A stretch of DNA of 64,000 nt from Arabidopsis thaliana (Eukaryota > Streptophyta > Magnoliopsida > Brassicales > Brassicaceae), in the NCBI RefSeq assembly GCF_000001735.4, contig NC_003071.7, forward strand, positions 15,537,443 through 15,601,442. Reading direction: 5' to 3'. The notes below the pieces were generated by a model. It did not search any database, was not told where the DNA came from, and was given only the letters and a program-made list of their open reading frames with translations. Shown piece by piece: positions 60 to 64,000 of this stretch (the stretch's first letter is position 1; each line of letters begins with the position of its first letter). The position numbers and the translations under genes were made by a program.

Positions 60-2574
60 CTAGACAAGCAAATCAGCATAAGCATGAAGTCCATGGCTGT
101 TCATGTTCTGCTTAAGCCTGTACAATGCCCGGCTCTCTAGCTGCCTTACCCTCTCCTTTGACAATCCGTAAATCTCTCCTATTTCCGATAACGATCTCTG
201 TTTACCGCCATCAATCCCAAATCTCAGCTTGATGATCCTTCTCTCCTTTGGACTCAGTACATTGAGGAGATTCCGTACATGGTTCCTCATCAGCTGCTTC
301 CCCACGCTCATTGTTGGTGTCTCAATCCCACTGTCTGGTGTTATTTCCTGTGGTATTAAACGGTTATTACCGGGTTTTGCTCAGTCAACAGAACATCTTC
401 AAAGACAGTTACCTGAAAGGTGGTGTCTTGATCAGACCAAATGGGCTGTTGCATTGAAAGAGGTGTTCTTGTATTGTACAGCAGTTTATCCAGCTTCTCT
501 GTTGAAACCCCAACGTGGCCAGCGAGTTCCTCTTTACTTGGTCGGTAATTCCCTTCCTGCACGCAAGTTTTTCTGGCTTCGGATACTTTGCCTAGTAGCA
601 TGTATACGTTCTCCTGTATCAACATGAGTAGATTTTAGCAATCCTTGCTTTAAAAGTAGATCCTTTAGTAGAGATAATGTCAGGTCTGATCAATTCTTTA
701 ACAAGTTTGTAGTTACCGGTAAACGGATTGTTCTGGAGTTTTGAAATATAGACTTTCTTATGGATTGTCGAATCCACCAGTAAGCGTAAGTAGCGAATCT
801 GCATCCGGATTGCGGTTTGAATTTTTCTACACTTTTCATTAGCCCCATGCTTCCTTCCTACGAACCATTAGATAAGCATAAGAAGAAGCATCAAGAGAAA
901 TGGACATCAAGTTAGATCACTCTATCCCACACCAAAAAATACTGAAGAGCTCGAGATATTTTTACAAGAAACCTTTTGTGCCTACACAAAAACAATGGGT
1001 TCATTTGAAGCTAACCTGCAATAAGTCCTGAAAGTTGAGTCCACGATTCTGATATTGTTTAGCTATATGGACTACCAGACGTAGGTTTGCTGTAATCAAC
1101 TTTTCCCGGCTGCTTCTCCCACGGTGGATATCAGATTTTAAGACAGGGGAACTTATCCCCATAGCTTCAGCCCACTCGCCTATTGTTGGTTCGCAGCCGT
1201 TTTGAGATTCAAGTTTAGTCTTTACCTTCTCCAACTTTAATAAATGCTGATAGATCAAAGATTATGGAAGTTAGCACCAGGGACAAGAAGGAAGTCCAAG
1301 GACACATGAATAAGGAAAGCATGAACCTGTATATGTGATATCAGCTCAGCTTCTTCTTTAGCAGTCAGAAGTTGTTTTGTCTCAGGTCCCCACAAGAAGA
1401 GCTGAAGCGCATCATCATTATCAGCCCCTTGTTTATACTTTTTCTTCGCACTAGTTTTCTGAGGAACATAACCCTCATCGTCCACATCGTTTGATTTTGG
1501 AGCCCGTCTGTTCTTTGCTCGTCTCTCTAGCTGCCGCTTCGATCTTACTATGTTTCCCTTTTCCGGTAAGGACATAGAAGAGCTAAAACCAAACATCCAG
1601 AAATACAAATCTTTTCACATTACAGCCCACAAGTAGCAGATTGATAAGATACACAAACAAGGTTAAAAAAAGCAACCTAGTGGAGAGAGAATCCTTGATG
1701 TTGTCAGATGGATTTGCTTCAGTGTCATCAACTAACAATGCAGCTTGTTTTGAAGCTGATAAAGCCTTCTGAGCTAGTGCAACCACATCACAAAGCTCTG
1801 CATCAGCTAAAGGAGACACAACTGCCGGCAATTTCGTTTCAGATGTTAAAGGAGATATTAATCTGCAAACAAAAGAAAGGCTACATCATTCAGAAAACTC
1901 AAAAGGTTGTATGAAAACTGAAACTGGTGGGTTTAAGAGAGGAAGAGACATTACAAATTCCATAAACCAGTAGAGTGAAGAAGTTGCTGTTCAAATTTCT
2001 CATCTTCTCGAGATGAAACCAATTCATCAAACTGCCTCCTCTCCAGAGTCAACTAAAAATGCAAGGAACCCAATCGCATTAAACAAGAGGACTAGAAAGT
2101 TGACAACTTTATGATTGATTCAATCTCTTAGGACAATATTGCTGCTAATAAAACACACCTGGGATGTTCTATCGTCTCTTAACGCATGTGACAGAGGCCT
2201 AGACTCTTCCCGTGGCTCCTGTGAGAGAACCGACGCAGGAAAATGTCGAGATAGAGAATTGAGATGACGTGAGTTAACAACAGGAGTTGTTGTTTGATCA
2301 TGAAGCATCACTACTACAGAAATACCAACAAACGAACAAAAACAAATCAGAAAATGCTAACACAAACTCGTATACATACACTAATTTCAAATTGAAATCC
2401 ATGAACTTCAAATTCCAGTAACTAACAGAGACAAATCCAGCAAAGACACAATATTTCTATATGAAGAGTAGCTGAATAAGAAGTACCAGAGGAAGGAGAA
2501 GAGTAGCTGCTCTTGAGATGAGTCTTTGTCTGAAACGAAGGAGATGAAGAAACCAAGTTCCTCGTAGCTTCCAT
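60..2574 (-). CDS. SIG6: Plastid RNA polymerase sigma factor 6
   Basis: Nuclear-encoded sigma-70 factor that directs the bacterial-type plastid RNA polymerase to chloroplast promoters. Coding exons on the minus strand: 2574-2487, 2313-2159, 2052-1955, 1862-1677, 1582-1327, 1246-1016, 857-717, 613-413, 347-60. They join to 547 codons with GT-AG junctions throughout. The Ser/Thr-rich, acid-poor N-terminus ([19 protein letters not shown]) suits a chloroplast transit peptide. Region 2 lies at about residues 312-395, with [27 protein letters not shown] and [14 protein letters not shown]. Region 4 is near the C-terminus, with [14 protein letters not shown] and the helix-turn-helix [20 protein letters not shown]. 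Length and sequence match Arabidopsis SIG6/SIGF (At2g36990). It is divergent from TCP11, with 373 bp between the two start codons. Confidence 0.97.
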
Positions 2575-2947
2575 TTCACAGAATCACCAAAGAATAAAAG
2601 ACTCTGTTTTTGCTTCCACGAATGGCTAAGGAAGAAGAAGAATAAGAACATGAGGCTACTCTACAGAGCCATGACGAACAGATAAGGCGACACACACACT
2701 CCCAATTTTTTTTTTGTAAAAATTAAAACTTGTTTGTTGCCATGGAAGTCAGATTTTGTTCTCTCTCCCTTTTTTTTTTTCCTACAGAGTGGATCATGTT
2801 GGGCCTTATATTGGGCTTAAAAGCCCAAATTATCCAAAAGTTAATTCGAATCATCTTCTTCTCCCTCCTTTAGTAACCCTAAGATTCTCTCTGTGAATCC
2901 TTGTTCATCGTCACTGAAATTAGTTTACAAAATCGACGAATTCGGAG
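2575..2947. promoter_or_regulatory. Bidirectional SIG6/TCP11 promoter with site II elements
   Basis: Only 373 bp separate the divergent SIG6 and TCP11 start codons. The interval holds three site II motifs (TGGGCC at 2800-2805, TGGGCT at 2812-2817, and its complement AGCCCA at 2822-2827) and a telo-box-like AACCCTAAG at 2875-2883. Site II plus telo-box is a known architecture of housekeeping plant promoters, and class I TCP proteins bind GCCCA-type sites. A T-rich run at 2770-2780 may be part of the core. Promoter activity is inferred from position and motifs. Confidence 0.6.
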
Positions 2948-3514
2948 ATGATTTTTCAGAATGTGTGCAGAAATGAGTCCAACTTCAACGCTATAGCTTC
3001 CGAATCGCGTTCCCAAACGCAGTTCGGTGTTTCGAAATCCTCCTCGAGCGGCGGCGGATGTATCTCCGCCAGGACTAAAGACCGTCACACGAAGGTTAAC
3101 GGACGAAGCCGTCGAGTTACGATGCCGGCTCTCGCCGCCGCTAGGATTTTCCAGTTAACGCGTGAGCTCGGTCACAAAACTGAAGGAGAAACCATCGAAT
3201 GGCTTCTTAGTCAAGCTGAACCGTCGATTATTGCCGCCACTGGCTACGGGACTAAGCTCATTTCGAATTGGGTTGATGTTGCGGCGGACGATTCCTCGTC
3301 GTCGTCGTCGATGACGTCGCCGCAAACGCAAACGCAAACGCCACAATCGCCGAGTTGTAGGTTGGATCTTTGTCAGCCAATCGGAATTCAGTATCCGGTG
3401 AATGGTTACAGTCATATGCCGTTCACAGCGATGCTTTTAGAGCCGATGACCACGACGGCGGAATCTGAGGTTGAGATCGCGGAGGAGGAGGAACGTAGAC
3501 GCCGTCACCATTAG
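2948..3514 (+). CDS. TCP11: Class I TCP transcription factor
   Basis: Intronless 188-aa protein with a non-canonical bHLH (TCP) domain at about residues 42-98. The basic part is [20 protein letters not shown], followed by helix I ([18 protein letters not shown]) and helix II ([18 protein letters not shown]). The short basic region with the RRVTMP spacing is the class I (PCF) form, which binds GGNCCCAC/GCCCA-type sites in the nucleus. After the domain come a Ser tract (SSSSSSM) and a TQTQTQTP repeat, both low complexity. I recognise it as TCP11 (At2g37000). The start is the first ATG of the open frame, and the shared promoter upstream carries GCCCA motifs of the type this family binds. Confidence 0.95.
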
Positions 3515-4277
3515 TAAAATTAGGCTTTTGATTTAGAGTGTTAAAATTAGGATTTTAAAAGTTTAGGAGGTAACAGATAAGGATAATTTAGTCAAATCAT
3601 GTTGTTTAGTTTGGTAATGTTATTTTGCCACTAAACAACTAATAATATTGTTTGATAATCTTATTATTTGGTTTTGGAAACAAATTGATTAAAAAATAAT
3701 GCCATATGTTTATAATGTTTATATTGTTTTTCTCACTATTGATTTGTGATTTTTTAGTAATGCTTGAAATCATTAAGCAACACTATTTAAATAAACAAAA
3801 ATTTCTCATGAAATCCAAAGAATCATCATTTGTCATGCTCCTCCAATATAGTTATTTCTATTTTTGGAAATAAGTTATAATTAAGAAACCAATCATTTTT
3901 CTCACCCATTTTTTTTTTCATTTGCTAGAAATCTGGACCTCCTTCCATGATGACCCTTCTCAACTCTCTTCTTTCACGCAAGTCTCTCATTTTTCAACTT
4001 TCCAACTTTTGATCTCAACGTCAACATTTCAAGATTTTCTAAAAGAGAACAAAAAAAATCTACAACAAGCTCGTTAGCTTTCTTTTAATCCTTCATCTCC
4101 ATTTTTCAAGAATATACTCATTGGTTTTCTCAAGACATGATAGAAAAACACAAGACATCTCTACGGATATTTCTATTGGTAGCTTCCAATGTATCTATTC
4201 TATTGTTAGGTCAGAGGGTTCAGATATTTCGATTCGGAAGGTTCTGATTTTAAGGCAAGACTTTTGATATAAGAACA
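3515..4277. other. Intergenic: TCP11 3' region and ABCG24 5' region
   Basis: AT-rich spacer between two + strand genes. The first part is probably the TCP11 3' untranslated region; the pyrimidine-rich stretch at about 3900-4090 looks like the ABCG24 promoter and leader. No open reading frame or RNA gene is supported. Confidence 0.5.
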
Positions 4278-7200
4278 ATGAGAGTTAGGGTTGATGTTTG
4301 TTGGACACAACACATCTTCTTGTTCTTTGTTTTTGGCTTGAGTTTTATGTCATTTGCACTATCTCTGGATGGAGATGATTACAGCAAAACAGGGAACCCA
4401 AAAGCTCTTGTTTCGGTTACAAACCTTATCTATACTCGACTTCAGAATCTAAAGACTGTTTTAAAGGCTGACGTTGATCGAGATTTAGGTTATTGCATCA
4501 AGAATTTGTAAGTCTTTTCAAAATCAGCTAATGTAGTCCCATGTTTGAATTTTACATTTTTCTCATATCGTTTGTTGATAATTCAGGAAGGGCGATTGGA
4601 ATGAAGCATTTAATTTTGATAAAAATCTGGACTTCTTAAGCAATTGTGTCAAGAAAAATGATGGTAAACAACATAAAAAGGGTTATGTTTTTATATTCAA
4701 ATACTTGAACATTGAGATTTAATGGTCTTGTGATATGCAGGTGACCTCACACTTAGACTATGTTCAGCTGCGGAGATAAAGTTCTACTTTAGTAGTTTTG
4801 TTAGAAGAGATGAAGCAACAACGGTTCATGTAAAGCCTAACATCAACTGCAATTTAGCTAAATGGGTTTCCGGATGTGAGCCTGGATGGAGTTGCAATGC
4901 AGATGATGAAAAAAGATTTGATCTCAACAATGGAAAAATTCTTCCATCTAGAACTCGTAAATGTCAACCTTGTTGTGAGGGTTTCTTTTGTCCACAAGGT
5001 CTTGCTTGCATGATACGTAAGATATCCATTTACATACATATATGTTATATCAACATTATAAGTACTAAAACTTTAATCTAACATATTCATTGTTGTTTAT
5101 TCTCTGATTTATGTAAACGAAGCGTGTCCGTTAGGCGCATATTGCCCGCTTGCCAAGCTTAATAAAACAACAGGATTTTGTGAGCCGTAAGTTGTTAGCT
5201 TTCTAGATTGAGTAAGTTAATGAAAAATCTTATTAGTGGATGATTTAAAGAGTTTTTACATTGCAGATATAACTACCAAATTCCTCCGGGAAAGTTGAAT
5301 CATACATGTGGTTCTGCAGATAGTTGGGTTGATGCTGAGAGTAGTGGTGATATGTTTTGTTCACCAGGTTCATATTGCCCAACAACGATTCGAAAAGTCA
5401 CTTGTAGTAGTGGGTATTGATTCTTTTATCTCACAACTCTTGTTACTTTTTGAAAATTTGTTTCATATATGAAATATTCATCATTAAGGATGTAATTAAT
5501 GTTTTTATGTATTACTTAGACATTACTGCAGACAAGGTTCTACGTCACAGAAACGTAAGTTTCTAAAACACTAAAACCTAAGAAAATGAATTGTTTTATA
5601 ATATCATTATCATTCATTAATTCTCTTTTTGGTGACCGTTTTAGCATGTTTTAAGCTCGCAACATGCAATCCGAATACCGCAAACCAAAATATTCATGCC
5701 TATGGAGCGATCTTAATTGTAAGTTGTTAGTTAATTAGAATACATTTTGCTTTAAAATTTGTTGGAAATTATATTTTCGTTATTGTATATATAGGCATCA
5801 CTAAGTCTTCTCATGATCATGGTTTATAACTGTTCTGATCAAGTTCTCGCCACTCGAGAAAAAAGACAAGCAAAGTCGAGAGAAGCTGCAGCGAGACATG
5901 CAAAAGAAACAACACAAGCTCGAGAAAGGTGGAAAACCGCAAAAGGTGTTGCCAAGAACCAAAAGATGGGATTGTCTGCACAACTATCTCAAACATTTTC
6001 TCGCATGAAATCTGCTAGAAAGGATGCCACACCAGTTAAAGCATCGGGAAAGTCAAAAGACAAGAAAAAAGAACCGAGTAATTTAACCAAGATGATGAAA
6101 TCAATGGAGGAGAACCCGAGTAACAACGAAGGATTCAATGTAGGAACCGGTAGTAAACCTGGGAAGAAGCCACAAGCTCCAAAGGGTAAACAACTACATA
6201 CCCAAAGCCAGATTTTTAAGTATGCATATGGTCAGATTGAGAAGGAGAAAGCTATGGAACAAAACAACAAGAACTTGACATTCTCGGGAGTTATTTCAAT
6301 GGCTACTGACACTGAGATGAGGACTAGACCTGTTATAGAAGTCGCGTTTAAGGATCTAACTCTTACATTGAAGGGTAAACATAAGCATATATTGAGATCT
6401 GTCACCGGAAAGATCATGCCAGGTCGTGTTTCTGCGGTCATGGGTCCATCAGGAGCTGGAAAAACTACATTTCTTTCTGCCTTGGCAGGAAAAGCAACTG
6501 GATGTACGAGGACGGGTCTAATCCTTATAAATGGTAGAAATGACTCTATAAACTCGTATAAGAAGATCACTGGATTTGTGCCACAAGATGATGTTGTGCA
6601 TGGCAATCTTACCGTCGAAGAGAACCTTCGATTTAGCGCAAGATGCAGGTAAATTTATTCTCATATCATAGAGGAGATTGAGAGTCCAATTCTTAAAAAA
6701 ATACATTTTTATTACATAGTGTTTATGCTTCAAAAAAATGTTGCATATCATTTATTTATATATGTTTCTTTACATGCAGATTAAGTGCTTATATGTCAAA
6801 AGCAGACAAAGTTTTGATCATTGAAAGAGTGATTGAAAGCTTAGGATTACAACATGTAAGAGACTCGTTGGTTGGTACGATAGAAAAAAGAGGAATCTCT
6901 GGAGGACAAAGAAAACGTGTGAACGTTGGTGTTGAAATGGTCATGGAACCTTCTCTATTGATATTAGATGAACCCACTACAGGTTTAGATAGTGCATCTT
7001 CACAATTACTTCTTAGAGCACTTCGACGTGAAGCACTTGAAGGTGTTAACATTTGTATGGTCGTCCATCAACCCAGGTATGTTATCTCCTCCATGAATTA
7101 TGTTACAATTTTATGTTAAGAAATACTTTTTGCTTAATAATTGGTTTTTTCCTCTTATTAGTTATACAATGTACAAAATGTTCGATGACATGATAATACT

Positions 7201-56807: not shown

Positions 56808-57373
56808 CTATTCGCCGGGCACAGGGACTCCCTGCTTCAGCTTCTCACGCTTGAGCTTCTTTTTGGAAAGAGGCTTCTTCTTCCTTGGAGGTAGATTCTT
56901 CTGAGCATACATGTACATAACGTAATTGGCTATGAGAAATGTCACAAGCAGACCTCCAATAACAAGCAGCACTATCAATCCAGGGTTCAATCCTTTGGCT
57001 TCAACAACCGCCTGTAAATTCACAAACAATGTATGCAACAATCCATACCAAAGTGAGATATTTGACATCATGTAAACCTAACGAAACTAATCCATGAATA
57101 CAATTGAAATTCCCTGTAAATAACCAGATCATGTTCAAAATAAACAATGCATGCGAGAGGATCATCAAGATCAAGACAACACAACAAGCAACAGATTAAA
57201 TTGATGATCTTCTTCTATTCAGCTCATAACAGATCTAACAATAATAAACAGAGATTTGGAACTTAAAAACCAATTATGGATCAGAGAGGAGCGTGATTGG
57301 TAAACACAGTTCGATTTCATCGGAAATTACAAATACGGAGACGTACCTTTCCGGCGGAACCATCACTGCTCAT
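56808..57373 (-). CDS. S1FA-like small protein with membrane span
   Basis: 76 codons from exons 57373-57347 (MSSDGSAGK) and 57011-56808. A hydrophobic segment ([20 protein letters not shown]) at about residues 18-37 is followed by [20 protein letters not shown] and a very basic tail with a nuclear-localisation-like [14 protein letters not shown]. The family is named for a spinach protein (S1Fa) reported to bind a promoter of a plastid ribosomal protein gene. The strong membrane-span prediction sits oddly with that label. I recognise At2g37120; which S1FA number it carries I am not sure. Confidence 0.93.
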
Positions 57374-57678
57374 GGCTAGTATCCGGAAATCTGAGAATGC
57401 CGGCAAAGAAACGAGTCGGAGATTCTTCTGTAAGGAACTGAGATCTGTGTTTCCGACGAGAAAGATTCAGACAAAAGACAAAAAAGACATGTATACTTAG
57501 GACAAAATAAATAAATTATAAAATATTAATTCATTTGCATCTTAGTAAAATAGAGAAGCCCAATAAGTAACATTTACTTCTATATATTATTACATTATTA
57601 CAATCAGATGACTTCAAAATTTATTTACTACATACAGCAGATTATCTTCACATATCACATGATGATTGAATTAACAAA

Positions 57679-58003
57679 GGGAAAAATGTCATTAAAATCC
57701 TGAACTTTGCTAAAACGTTGATTTAAATCCCGTACTTTATTTGAAACGAAAAAAACATCGAACTTTTGTTGACTTTTCTAATAAATCTTAAACTTGTGTT
57801 GACCGCGCCATTTTAGTCTTGTCGTTATCTGGGTTAACAGACTTAATTGACAGGGTTAATTAGACGTTAACAGAGACATAATTTGCAAACGACACAGTTT
57901 CGGTTTTAGTAAACGACGTCGTTTTATCAAAAAGACTGAACTTCCCCAATTCGATTTGAAAAATCACGAGCCCTAAAAAACAAAAATTCTCAATTCTCTT
58001 TTG
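57679..58003 (+). repeat. Left terminal inverted repeat
   Basis: Starts GGGAAAAATGTC and runs to about 58003 (TTCTCAATTCTCTT). Pairs with 59407-59741 in inverse orientation with scattered mismatches and small indels. Confidence 0.85.
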
Positions 58004-58035
58004 TCGATCGAGGAAGAGAAATTCGAAACTGTAAT

Positions 58036-58363
58036 GATGAGAAAGAAGCTGCCTGCTGATGTCGACCCGCCTCCTCCTGTTGTTGAGCCGCCTCATGTTG
58101 TTGTCGAGCCTCCGTCTGCTTCTATCGAGCCTCCGTCTGCTTCCATAGAGCCTCCGTCTGTTGCTATCGAGCCTCCGTCTGTTGCTGAGCTATGACGTGC
58201 TTCTGTCGAGGCTCCTGCTGTTCACGAGCCTTCTACTAGGCCGTCTCATTCTGTCGTTGACAATAGGAGAAGAAAAAAATCGAAACAGAATGGTAACAGG
58301 TTAGATGGTGACAATAGAAGGAAAAAATCGAAAAGGAGTAGAAGGATGGAGATCATGGTTTGA
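58036..58363 (+). pseudogene. Interrupted Pro-rich/basic ORF inside the Mutator-like element
   Basis: From ATG 58036 the frame encodes MRKKLPADVDPPPPVVEPP, then a 7-residue repeat (EPPSASI/EPPSVAI) encoded by 21-bp units at 58106-58188. It meets TGA at 58193-58195. Past that stop the same frame stays open to 58363 and encodes a basic tail (DNRRRKKSKQNGNRLDG, NRRKKSKRSRR). So one in-frame stop splits an otherwise continuous frame. No family is recognised; the composition recalls disordered nuclear proteins. The ORF begins just inside the left TIR, as the GRF gene does at the right TIR. Confidence 0.5.
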
Positions 58364-58585
58364 GTGTTCAAACTTGACATGAGAACATCGATTGGTCTTT
58401 GGTTGTTGGTATTTGGATTGTTTCATAACTTGAGATGTCTCTTTTGTTGTCTCTTTTGTTGTTTGATTTTTGGTTCGGCAAGTTTTAAGACATGTTGGTT
58501 AACTACTTTTAATCACTCATAGTTTTAAGACAAGTTTTTGTTTGAGTGAAATTATTCCATCTCTTTACTCCGATTCTCATATCAA

Positions 58586-58677
58586 GACCAAACACTCACA
58601 CCGACCAAACACTCACACCTTATATCAAGACCAAACACTCACATTCACCCAAGAAAAATAAAGACCAAACACTCACA
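58586..58677 (+). repeat. Four dispersed copies of a 15-bp motif
   Basis: GACCAAACACTCACA occurs at 58586, 58603, 58629 and 58663, exact in all four places and separated by 2, 11 and 19 bp. It lies within the Mutator-like element between its two ORFs. Confidence 0.9.
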
Positions 58678-58852
58678 AGTTTTATTAAGACAGCAACAAA
58701 GCCAACATTACAAAGTCATAAAAGTCACAAATACTACATTGTCATTACAAGCTTGCCGAAGACAACAAGATAGATAGACCTACACTATTAAGCAACAACA
58801 AATTCATTTTTTTTTGCCTTACCAAGCATCATGTAAAGAATGAAAATGCTGA

Positions 58853-59355
58853 TCAAACAAAGCCAAAAAAACATATTTTCAAACACACTTTCCACTTGCA
58901 GATTTCTTGTTTACTCAACATTGCTTCTTCTTTTAGTTCATGTATCATCACAATTAGCTCATTTGCCTCGGATTTGGCTTTGTTAAGCTCATTTGCAATG
59001 ATCACAAATTTTGGTAAAACATCTTCAACCTCTTCGTATACAGCATCCTCAACCCATTTAAACAAATGACTCTGTTACACAATCAAACCAAATCCGATAT
59101 GATTAGCTGCTAAGTTACATAACATAAACACAAACTCAAACTCAAACTCAAACTCAAACTCAAACTCAAACTCAAACTTACATCTTTTTTGTTTGTCCAC
59201 GTCTTTGGATCTCTTTTCGTTTCACAACGAAAAAAAGGTCTGCCCGGATTATCAACACTCTTCGATGTGAAGATTGTCACATCATCTCCACACCAACACT
59301 TCACCGGAAAACCACGGTTTTGGACAACACCCGATGACGCTGAACTTGAACTCAT
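58853..59355 (-). CDS. GRF-type zinc-finger protein carried by the Mutator-like element
   Basis: Two exons, 59355-59182 and 59071-58853, join in frame to 130 codons. The N-terminal zf-GRF domain reads [20 protein letters not shown], then [14 protein letters not shown], with the CxCG, NPGRxFxxC core of the family, which binds single-stranded nucleic acid in several DNA-processing proteins. The second exon starts with the usual [14 protein letters not shown] segment, then a coiled coil ([20 protein letters not shown]), and ends in a hydrophobic tail ([11 protein letters not shown]). This layout is common for small plant GRF proteins. The intron begins GTAAGT, which is itself the first unit of an eightfold hexanucleotide repeat. 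The gene lies wholly inside a transposon, so it may be a captured or transposon-encoded accessory gene. Expression is unknown. Confidence 0.7.
59131..59178. repeat. Hexanucleotide microsatellite (CAAACT)8
   Basis: Eight perfect tandem units. On the minus strand this is (AGTTTG)8 and starts at the third base of the GRF-gene intron, directly at the 5' splice site. Confidence 0.97.
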
Positions 59356-59406
59356 TGCGTAGGAAGATCCAATTTTCGAAATCGATTTCAATTCTGTCGT
59401 AGAAGA

Positions 59407-59741
59407 AGAGAACTGAGAAATTTTGTTTTTTTAGGGCTTGTGATTTCTTCGATTTCTGATCGAATTGGGGGAAAACATAGCAAGTCGTTTTGATAAAACG
59501 ACGTCGTTTACTAAAAACGAAACTGTGTCGTTTGCAAATTATGTCTCTGTTAACGTCTAATTAACCCTGTCAATTAAGTCTGTTAACCCAGATAACGGCA
59601 AGACTAAAATGGCGCGGTCAACACAAGTTTAAGATTTATTAGAAAAGTCAACAAAAGTTTGATATTTTTTTCGTTTCAAATAAAGTTCGGGATTTAAATC
59701 AACGTTTTAACAAAGTTCGGGATTTTAATGACATTTTTCCC
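59407..59741 (-). repeat. Right terminal inverted repeat
   Basis: Inverse copy of 57679-58003, ending GACATTTTTCCC. A few small insertions make it about 10 bp longer than the left copy. Confidence 0.85.
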
Positions 59742-59751
59742 AATTAACAAA

Positions 59752-60782: not shown

Positions 60783-62562
60783 TTAGTTCACATAACGACA
60801 ATCCTTCCTGATCTCCCCTTGGTCTCCCGTGAGCGGGTTGGTCTCGGACAAGAGCCTGACGCCACGTGAGAACTGCTCATGGAAGTAATTATTGTCCGCA
60901 GCCATCTTGGCCACAAACGGTGCGGTCCTGGGATCGGTGGCTAGCTCATCATCAATGACAAGAAGCCCCTTATGGGCCATGATGTTCTTATAATACATGT
61001 TGTCCACAACCATCGGAGTCTCACGATCGTTACGGGAGTACAAGACGGCGTTCGGGTCCGGTGTTGGACTTGGGCAACGTTTTTTTAAGTAAAGGGCGTA
61101 ACTTGGGTCGAGAGTAGGGTCAATCGTTGGGTATAGCCGGTGCACTAGGTTAACGCAGTGGACCCTACCCACTGAGTGAGCACCTACGGTTATATACATT
61201 GACTGATCACTAACAATATCATTTTATATTAAAAAAAGAAAAAAAAACAATATCATTTTATAATTAAAAATAAAATAAAATAACGATATCATCCTTATTT
61301 AAGGAAATTCAATTAGTATCTCTAAGAAAATTTCTGTGATATATCTTTTTACTTCACTAGACATTACATCTCCGAATCAAATACCAAACCCAATAACTAA
61401 ACAAAAGTTCGTTTATAGTGATCGATTTTGTATGTCAAAATTAAAAAAATTCAGATAAAAATTTACAGTATACTCCCTAAATACATTAGTAAAAGTTCGA
61501 CCGGATAAATGTGGTTTTAATTCAGTAAAATTCTTGTCTATCCGAAAAAAACTTGAACTAAACGGAAAACAGAAATGACATCCTACTTAAGTAGTTAAAA
61601 CATGGTTACCTAAGAGAGCGACGGTGGCTTCGACATCGATGCCAATGGAGTTAAAGGTGGAGATAACAGATGAGAGAGAGTCATTGTGGTTAGGGATTAG
61701 AGTCTCAACATCTCCCAAGTAGCTCCCTCTACTATCTCTCCTTCCTGTCTTTATCATCTCTATCTTTGGCCCTTTCAACTATTAATTTCACCAAAAATTA
61801 ATCACCACAAATACAAAAAAAAAAAAATCCCAAATAAAATGCATGTAAATATTTGCATAAACGCACCATGACAATACCGTCTCTCGCAGAAAGAGCGACA
61901 ATATCAGCACAAGAGACTGTGGAAGGACACTCTTTCTCGAGTGCGTCTTTGATAATCTTAACGTACTTAAAGTTTCTCATACCGAAACTCCTCTTCGATT
62001 TCTGCTCAGATTCCACACCTCTCGCTGTCTCTAGCAGCAGCGACGCATCACACGACTATAAAATAAAATAAAAACACACACATGAACATTCATATAGACA
62101 TTTTTTTTTGGGGACAAACTCGTATAGATATCTATGTCTTATGAATTCCGGTGAATATACCTTGACGACACAGTCATGGAAGAGATTACGGAGCCAAGAT
62201 ACGGCTGTGTTACCGTGTTTGTAGTAAAGCGTCTCCACTTGTTGTCTTATTATCTCTTCCGCTTTTGGACAACTCTCTTTGTAATAGTTCATCTCCAATT
62301 CCCCATTTCCTACAATTTTTAATAGTTTATAGAATATTTAAATTCTAATGGTGGAAATTAAATTAGTGAAAGAATGAATATCATTACTTCTTATAGTACA
62401 GTATATGGTATCTATAGATAAATGTATTAGAGTGGCAATGGAGACACATGGCATAACGTAATTAGATAAGGGAAGAATGTATTTACCGATATGGAAGATG
62501 GAGAATAACTGTAATAACAGACAAAAGAAGCCGAGGAGACAAAAGGGCTTCGCATTGGCCAT
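60783..62562 (-). CDS. PER21: Class III secretory peroxidase 21
   Basis: Haem peroxidase of the apoplast that oxidises phenolics with hydrogen peroxide (lignin, suberin, defence). Exons: 62562-62487, 62309-62161, 62055-61867, 61778-61610, 61183-60783, giving 327 codons. A signal peptide covers residues 1-26 (PFCLLGFFCLLLQLFSIFHI). The mature part starts ELEMNYYKESCPKAEEIIR. The distal haem site has the RNLFHDCVV block (R and catalytic H). The CDASLLLET calcium-site region follows. The proximal His is in LLGAHSVGRVHC. Conserved Cys residues are in CPSTVSCAD, VHC and the C-terminal KDCRYVN. Residue positions and intron count fit class III peroxidases. I recognise At2g37130 (peroxidase 21). Confidence 0.97.
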
Positions 62563-64000
62563 TGCTCTCTCTCTCTCTATTCTCTCTTATCTTTTGTCTA
62601 ATTAATTATTGGTGTGTGGCTCTATATGTGTTCCAATGTAGGGTTATATAGAGTTTGAGAACCTCTCTAATCGTGTATGATAAAATTAAGCATCTTTATT
62701 TCTTAGTCATAGTGGTTGCTGTCACTATTAATTAATTATTATTTTTCAATAATCGGGGGTTTCTTAATCGTTCTAAACTCATATTAATACTCAAATTTAA
62801 AACCACTAGCTATCTAGCTATCTGAACTCAATAGTTGTTGAACATGTGAAATTGTGAATTCAGTGAGACTCGATGTCCAATTTAATTCGATAAAAATAGT
62901 AATATACTAGCACAGTAGCATTAATTAATTTAGCTTTTCACTTTTGTTCCAATATATTATCAAACCGATTCAAGTATATATCCATTTTTCTGTTATTTTT
63001 TCCTTCAAATATTAATCAGCAATCTATAAACATTTTCATGTTCCACCAAAAAGTAATATGTATACAATTTGAAATAGTTCTTAGTATAGAAAATAAATAA
63101 AATTGCTTGCAATGATTATCATGAATATTACACGTCAACGTCTACATACCCAACTCTCTTAATTTCAGCGCTATGCTAACCTATAGCTTATATTGGCCTA
63201 TTATCTTAAATACAATTATTATTTAATATATATGATTATAAAAAAGTTTTGGCCTATTATCTTGGTTCCAACAAGTTTATCAATAACAAAATCAGTTGAC
63301 AATAAAAAAAAGAAGGTTAAGTGAATTTACTTTTTTTTTTTTTGAATCTTATAATCCTTTTCTGCTTTTTTTTTTGTGGTAAAATTTATGCTACCTCAAT
63401 TTAACAGATTCTACCAGACTTACCCGCATTTTACCTTCCGTTTAAGATATTGTTACCAATTTGGAATCATTAGCTCACTTCAGAAATATTCAGTACTGTT
63501 AGAGTTGTTAATTTTTAACAAAAAAAGAACGAAAGAATTAGACTGCTCATCAAAATATTTGGCAAAAATACTGAATAAAAACCTTAAATTTTTAAGATTA
63601 TGTACAACCGTTAATAAAGTTTACTTATTAATACAGTATATATCTAGCAATCATTCAAATATATTGTTGGGAATTGGGGATAAGAATCCGATCTTCGATA
63701 GAATGTTACTATAGAAGTCTGATCAAATTTGAAAAGATCCTTAAGTAGCTGTTCATCTATCATTCTTTCGTACGAATATGAGCAATTTGGTTATGAATTT
63801 TAAAGTTACCGTAAAGTTTTAGTTAGTTTGGAAAGCAAAAAGGTTACATTTTTATATGTCAGCAATAAAGATATGTAACAATATAATATTTTAAGAAGAA
63901 AATCCAAAGAAGAATTAAGAAAAAGATTCCTTGGTGTATATAATGAATAATTGAAAGCCATTAAGTTTGACCTTTTAGACATTTCAGTAATCGCATGCGC
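62563..64000. other. PER21 promoter and downstream AT-rich DNA
   Basis: The first few hundred bases are the PER21 promoter, including a CT-repeat leader (62568-62585). Beyond about 63000 no gene is supported. A 112-codon frame at 63376-63714 is Leu/Lys/Asn-rich and looks like a chance frame or an old remnant. Confidence 0.45.

Follow-up and report, generated by a model that had tools for sequence, protein, structure and literature searches.

A Mutator-like element (MULE) of 2,063 bp resides at positions 57679-59741 of the window, the 64,000-nucleotide stretch of Arabidopsis thaliana DNA analysed here (C2:15537443-15601442). The element is a non-autonomous, internally deleted member of the TIR type, and the GRF zinc-finger gene which it carries is probably a long-standing accessory module of its family, encoding a putative transposition helper, rather than a gene captured by the window copy. 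The antiquity of the module is suggested by its recurrence beside MULE transposases genome-wide, and by its constraint between divergent copies. The window element itself is an ordinary deleted MULE; its interest lies in the GRF accessory gene to which it leads, one that is recurrent and conserved in Arabidopsis MULEs and may have been exchanged among them.

The features of the element are collected in Table 1. Its outer borders are marked by a perfect 10-bp target site duplication (TSD), AATTAACAAA, a length falling within the 9-11 bp of MULEs; given the base composition, a 10-bp match at two fixed places is expected by chance with a probability of about 2e-6. The terminal inverted repeats (TIRs) share an ungapped block of 259 nt, 97% complementary, and a gapped alignment extends them to about 330 bp; its 359 columns comprise 28 gap columns and 311 matches, the latter making up 94% of the ungapped columns. 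Ends of such length are those of long-TIR (TIR-type) MULEs. The inverted ends and the duplication reported in the first-pass annotation thus hold on direct comparison, and the description of a non-autonomous Mutator-like element is borne out by TIRs, TSD and the presence of a transposase in relatives. As far as the TSD goes, the element shows past insertion only, and its mobility is putative. The TIR strand folds into a hairpin no better than shuffled sequences (z 0.28). As had been stated, the element is without transposase: no transposase domain was detected in the two window proteins scanned, the GRF protein and a 64-residue plus-strand ORF (58001-58195), the ORFs of the element outside the scan being all shorter than 100 residues. 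The element sits between two minus-strand genes. The start codon of the left neighbour, presumably an S1FA gene, is at 57373, and the element lies upstream of it, at 296 bp as counted to the left TSD. Mutator elements tend to land near gene starts, and an insertion at this place fits such a habit. The right neighbour (60786-62586), which we take to be a peroxidase gene, has its 3' end facing the element.

Table 1. Anatomy of the MULE, in window coordinates.
Feature	Positions	Strand	Remarks
Left TSD copy, AATTAACAAA	57669..57678		10 bp
Left TIR	57679..58000	+	ungapped to 57937; weaker and gapped to ~58000
Remnant, start of transposase-side gene	58034..58195	+	ATG 58034; proline-rich 21-bp repeats; premature stop 58193-58195
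Private stretch, 178 bp	58334..58511		sister has there ~1.1 kb with transposase sequence
GRF exon 2 and stop	58853..59071	-	72 codons (59071-58856), stop 58855-58853; one-base shift near residue 126; hydrophobic C-terminus lost
GRF intron, 110 nt	59072..59181	-	borders GTAAGT...CAG; AAACTC repeat array
GRF exon 1	59182..59355	-	ATG 59355; 58 codons; CxCG ... NPGRPFFRC zinc ribbon core
Right TIR	59406..59741	-	ungapped block 59483-59741
Right TSD copy, AATTAACAAA	59742..59751		10 bp

The GRF gene has 130 codons in all, and its two exons, with a frame open across the splice junction, lie where they had originally been placed. The splice model is supported by comparison, since the position of the intron in the protein is the same across the modelled relatives, and frames are conserved on both sides. 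The gene had been described as intact-looking, which it is not. The relatives measured (n=13) encode, as modelled, proteins of 150-165 residues, and the missing C-terminal stretch is still readable in another frame of the window copy, so that the truncation is attributable to a shift by one base relative to the sister element described below. Against the GRF profile PF06839 the window protein scores 22.1 bits (E 1.6e-4), below the cut-off of 25.9.

The genome (119.7 Mb, seven contigs) was searched with the left TIR block. Of the 38 matches obtained, a single one marks another close element, located on chromosome 1 (C1:17842314-17845286, positions 1015-3987 of locus L031) and flanked on both sides by a perfect 10-bp TSD, TTTTTTAAAG. 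This sister is 97.4% identical to the window element over 654 bp at the left and 96.9% over 1,231 bp at the right, and carries the same GRF gene, in open frame, as the proposed search for copies with the same gene was meant to reveal. At the place of the 178-bp private stretch, which in the genome search matched only its own place, the sister has about 1.1 kb, in which the C-terminal portion of a SWIM-bearing MULE transposase is encoded. The sister is deleted as well, since most of the transposase core is missing. The frame which begins with the proline-rich stretch stays open in the sister over 192 codons, or about 173 when counted from the ATG. The interrupted ORF of the window copy, formerly taken for a decayed sister of the GRF gene, is consequently the start of the transposase-side frame. 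An acidic region resembling it forms the N-terminus of the transposase in a coding relative (L081). The AAACTC array in the GRF intron counts 7 units in the window copy (59121-59178) and 4 in the sister (L031 ~3391-3424).

The TIRs of L081 (C1:16659600-16664600), 89% identical, span positions 92-421 and 4421-4722. Its minus strand has two long open frames, one of 560 codons and one of 358, which carry DBD_Tnp_Mut, MULE and SWIM domains and are a candidate for one spliced transposase. The GRF gene of L081 (58 + 95 codons) is free of stops, starts just inside the left TIR, and is convergent with the transposase. On inspection of the flanks by eye a clean target duplication was not seen. In two further elements on C1 the stretch upstream of the GRF gene has an inverted copy beyond the transposase (5916224-5916664 and 5911717-5911855 in the element at 5.91 Mb, 29479174-29479495 and 29474557-29474748 in the one at 29.47 Mb). 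The GRF gene lies inside long TIRs in all five elements which show them (window, sister, L081, C1:5.91M and C1:29.47M). The MURA-type transposase of the family of the window element is represented by the SWIM-bearing fragment of the sister and by the DBD_Tnp_Mut, MULE and SWIM domains of L081, and is absent from the window copy. This organization was not recovered in two other GRF-bearing lineages. In the L084 lineage the stretch upstream of the GRF gene has no inverted partner, and TIRs looked for upstream of the GRF gene in the L078/DUF730 lineage were not found, direct repeats about 0.75 kb apart occurring there instead. The TIR of the GRF-bearing MULE at C1:5.91M also has relatives in short elements, about 0.45 kb long, which consist of inverted ends in pairs (C5:16970631-16971077, C1:4209164-4209607, C2:713345-713789 and other places) and look like MITE-type derivatives.

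The association of GRF genes with MULE transposases was assessed genome-wide by comparing 83 GRF clusters with 210 transposase clusters. The former derive from 79 of 113 protein matches (E up to ~0.001) and 66 of 70 profile matches; the latter from the 150 matches scored among 233 candidates, and from 70 of the 150 scored among 292, chosen by eye as not repeating places of the first set. Only part of the candidates was scored, so the counts are lower bounds. A MULE transposase is found at no more than 5 kb from at least 45 of the 83 GRF clusters, in convergent orientation for 32 of them, on the same strand for 13, and in divergent orientation for none; 38 have no transposase match within this distance. 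Controls in which the GRF clusters were shifted by at least 20 kb and at most 50 kb, 200 kb or 1 Mb (500 rounds each) gave means of 4.7, 3.9 and 3.3, with a maximum of 10. Among 150 F-box places, out of 892 candidates, serving as negative control, 2 were found within 5 kb of a transposase. As positive control, 42 PMD matches, some of which merged by hand, made 30 clusters, 9 of which lie within 5 kb of a transposase (8 convergent, 1 divergent). Seen from the transposase side, 12 of the 15 clusters most similar to that of the sister (its own included) have a convergent GRF gene within 3 kb, and 3 have no GRF gene nearby. Ranked by similarity, the best matches to the window gene in the genome are the gene of the sister and further copies, most of which are MULE-linked.

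GRF genes look constrained between divergent copies. Fourteen genes make 91 pairs, 12 of which have undefined dS, 71 a dS of about 0.5 or more, and 8 are close. In the 71 deep pairs NG86 dN/dS ranges from 0.12 to 0.42, ratios to be read as rough, since dS exceeds 1 in 55 of them. Seven of the close pairs range from 0.41 to 0.89, and the pair formed by window and sister genes gives 4.14, the shifted end included. The set excludes three genes with broken frames, L085, L065 and L084, the last lacking a recognizable end of exon 1, and exon 1 of L072 was modelled 9 codons short. The constraint is part of the history of the GRF family, not of the window copy. Over the first 126 codons window and sister genes differ by 3 nonsynonymous and 0 synonymous changes, too few to show anything on selection. 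The comparison of dN/dS among copies, which had been suggested as a check, is therefore informative for the divergent copies and uninformative for the window copy, and the notion of an intact gene under selection in the latter is not supported, as the gene is truncated.

The alternative that the GRF gene is mere cargo, acquired from the host through transduplication by the element or a recent ancestor in the manner of Pack-MULEs, is unlikely. MULEs are known gene-capturers, and the 38 GRF clusters away from transposases indicate that host-type GRF genes exist. A rice GRF-domain gene in a Pack-MULE (TNR12/MuDR) is described as a captured fragment (PMC3503983). Capture by a different lineage would fit as well the properties of the GRF genes C2:6077, C4:2158 and C4:5954, which belong to the L084 lineage: their products are 68-72% identical to the window protein (best match of each by bits), but the transposases found 3.9-4.0 kb away are only 27-28% identical to that of the sister. 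Yet, the same gene, with the same intron, is found in many diverged elements, and cargo is not expected to hold one orientation, as in 32 convergent versus 0 divergent pairs, or a low dN/dS across elements. The first-pass annotation had offered the GRF gene as either a captured host gene or a transposon accessory. The accessory option is supported by the 45 of 83 clusters near a transposase and by L081, and capture by the window element is opposed by the sister and by the many MULEs with the gene in the same orientation. An ancestor of the window element may have captured the GRF gene at an older date.

Nine GRF proteins, from the sister and eight other relatives, share the invariant residues C20, C22, G38, R39, F42, C44, H60, L61, F62, K63 and W64. 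The CxC ... GRxF ... C core of the zinc ribbon is present, and H60 is found where a fourth Cys is expected. Judging from the alignment, the domain appears to be a CCCH zinc ribbon, with His as the putative fourth ligand. All nine relative proteins scanned match PF06839 (E up to 0.01, best 1.4e-6). Of 70 genome matches to the profile, 23 (counted among those above 25 bits) pass the cut-off either by themselves or together with adjacent matches, and several of them are MULE-linked relatives. A profile search of solved structures with the MULE GRF gave 7 matches, none significant (E 0.12-0.85), those to NEIL3 structures having E 0.32-0.37. Close to the C-terminus the 13 relatives all have a hydrophobic stretch of 19 residues, with Kyte-Doolittle means of 2.51-3.24, whereas the window protein reaches at most 0.69; the last residues are GY or GH in 12 of the 13. 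The C-terminal segment of the relatives resembles a membrane anchor.

These features bear on a second alternative, according to which the GRF protein would serve not in DNA handling but in anti-silencing, targeting the chromatin or methylation of its own family in the way VANC does in VANDAL21. An Arabidopsis MULE is reported to encode a sequence-specific anti-silencing protein, VANC21 (PMC5735166), and anti-silencing has been proposed for accessory PMD genes in MULEs (PMC5418596). However, a Pfam scan of two GRF proteins and nine alignment members gave GRF-type matches, all others being only weak, and a membrane-like C-terminus is unexpected in a chromatin factor, which makes this role improbable for the GRF protein. 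That GRF genes and MULEs merely share repeat-rich parts of the chromosomes, where many of both lie by position, is hardly tenable, because shifts of 20-50 kb keep the surroundings and yet yield 4.7 clusters on average and never more than 10, versus 45 observed, because divergent pairs are missing against 32 convergent ones, and because the location of the GRF gene inside TIRs in five elements refutes it for elements with TIRs.

The coding relatives of the family carry two convergent genes, a MURA-type transposase and a two-exon GRF gene, each starting just inside one TIR; in the accessory model favored here, the TIRs would drive both. The GRF product, which combines a CCCH ribbon, a charged, helical-looking region and a C-terminal hydrophobic anchor, is a predicted transposition helper. 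It would most likely hold single-stranded or broken DNA resulting from excision or insertion, in analogy, not homology, with mudrB-type helpers. The window copy has lost nearly all of the transposase, and a one-base shift has truncated its GRF gene; it may be mobile only with the transposase of a relative.

Strict co-descent of GRF genes and transposases was considered, by correlating the identity of GRF proteins to that of the window with the identity of transposases to sister sequences, and rejected, as all 24 convergent pairs with data gave rho 0.14 (p 0.52). A hand-picked set of 18 convergent pairs, from which 6 with data were left out, had given rho 0.82; removal of just the three L084-type pairs from the full set gives 0.64 (n 21, p 0.0016). 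The simplest view is that the GRF module moved between MULE lineages, as the comparison of sequences in the L084 lineage hints; capture by a second lineage would be this very transfer, described for the recipient. GRF genes of similar sequence occur at C3:14105 and C3:14136, 4.4 and 2.0 kb from PF10551 matches, and the like spacing suggests that GRF gene and transposase are parts of a single type of element. In the L084 lineage a further GRF-like match, though a weak one (E 0.008-0.76), was seen on the other strand less than 1 kb from the first, at C3:14105024, C4:2157737, C2:6076450 and C4:5955593. Elements of this lineage may, from such matches, carry two GRF genes. Near another transposase lineage, locus L087 hosts a same-strand GRF-like gene with CxCG, C and HLIQWW motifs.

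GRF genes have a further recurrent neighbour, the orphan family DUF730 (PF05325). From 23 of 31 DUF730 matches, those over the cut-off, 13 clusters were obtained. Eleven of these have a GRF cluster in divergent orientation nearby, at less than 4 kb in 10 cases and at 8.6 kb in one, and the two other clusters are far away. The DUF730 gene of L086 encodes CxC, a later C, CGFKRWW and a charged tail, with no hydrophobic end, and looks GRF-like because of this pattern. Weak cross-matches between DUF730 and GRF are found in Pfam. About ten direct repeats, ~0.75 kb apart, were noticed between the DUF730 gene and the GRF gene at C2:5198066-5205647, and fewer in other DUF730-GRF pairs. A speculative and rather doubtful extension of the model is that several MULE lineages, with distantly related transposases, share an exchanged mobile module, a tail-anchored GRF protein by which the transposase complex or intermediates of transposition would be tethered to a membrane, for example the nuclear envelope, and that one lineage would have two GRF-type genes, for an anchored CCCH protein and for a divergent soluble one, DUF730.

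If these views are correct, a good share of the uncharacterised GRF zinc-finger genes of Arabidopsis would be transposon accessory genes, and DUF730 would be part of this system too. To mudrB, PMD and VANB/VANC one more recurrent helper of MULEs would then be added, with a putative role during transposition, either in handling DNA or in tethering to a membrane. A recurrent accessory role of GRF genes in MULEs was not found in the open-licence PMC papers searched. The term GRF has no occurrences in the main text of PMC6446971, PMC7385966, PMC5735166 and PMC5418596, and in the matching passages of other open-licence papers GRF genes appear only in expression, QTL, interval or domain tables. What these sources have in print is a single MULE-borne GRF gene, read as capture (PMC3503983).

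Parallels and differences with known systems can be drawn nonetheless. The Zf-GRF of APE2 binds ssDNA (PMC6122073). The PF06839 core is common to the GRF ribbons of APE2, NEIL3 and MULEs, but the MULE protein is small and stand-alone, with a helical-looking region, a hydrophobic tail, and His as the apparent fourth ligand. GLU-U7, the rice GRF-domain gene within a Pack-MULE, is reported as a single captured fragment (PMC3503983), and is likened to the window gene by description, not by sequence, both being GRF-domain genes inside a MULE. The two genes of maize MuDR, mudrA and mudrB, are convergent and have promoters in the TIRs. MuDR resembles the family of the window element in having long TIRs, a transposase and a second gene, the likeness to mudrB being one of organization; the second gene, of unknown function, is said to be required for integration (PMC6446971). 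Other plant MULEs host a PMD accessory gene antisense to the transposase, and GRF is not listed in Table 1 of the same source (PMC6446971). The accessory gene of the window family is likewise opposite to the transposase, but encodes a small GRF zinc-ribbon protein, not PMD. VANDAL21, or Hiun, is also an Arabidopsis MULE endowed with accessory genes, VANA, VANB and VANC (PMC5735166, PMC6446971), from which the window element differs in its long TIRs and in having GRF as accessory.
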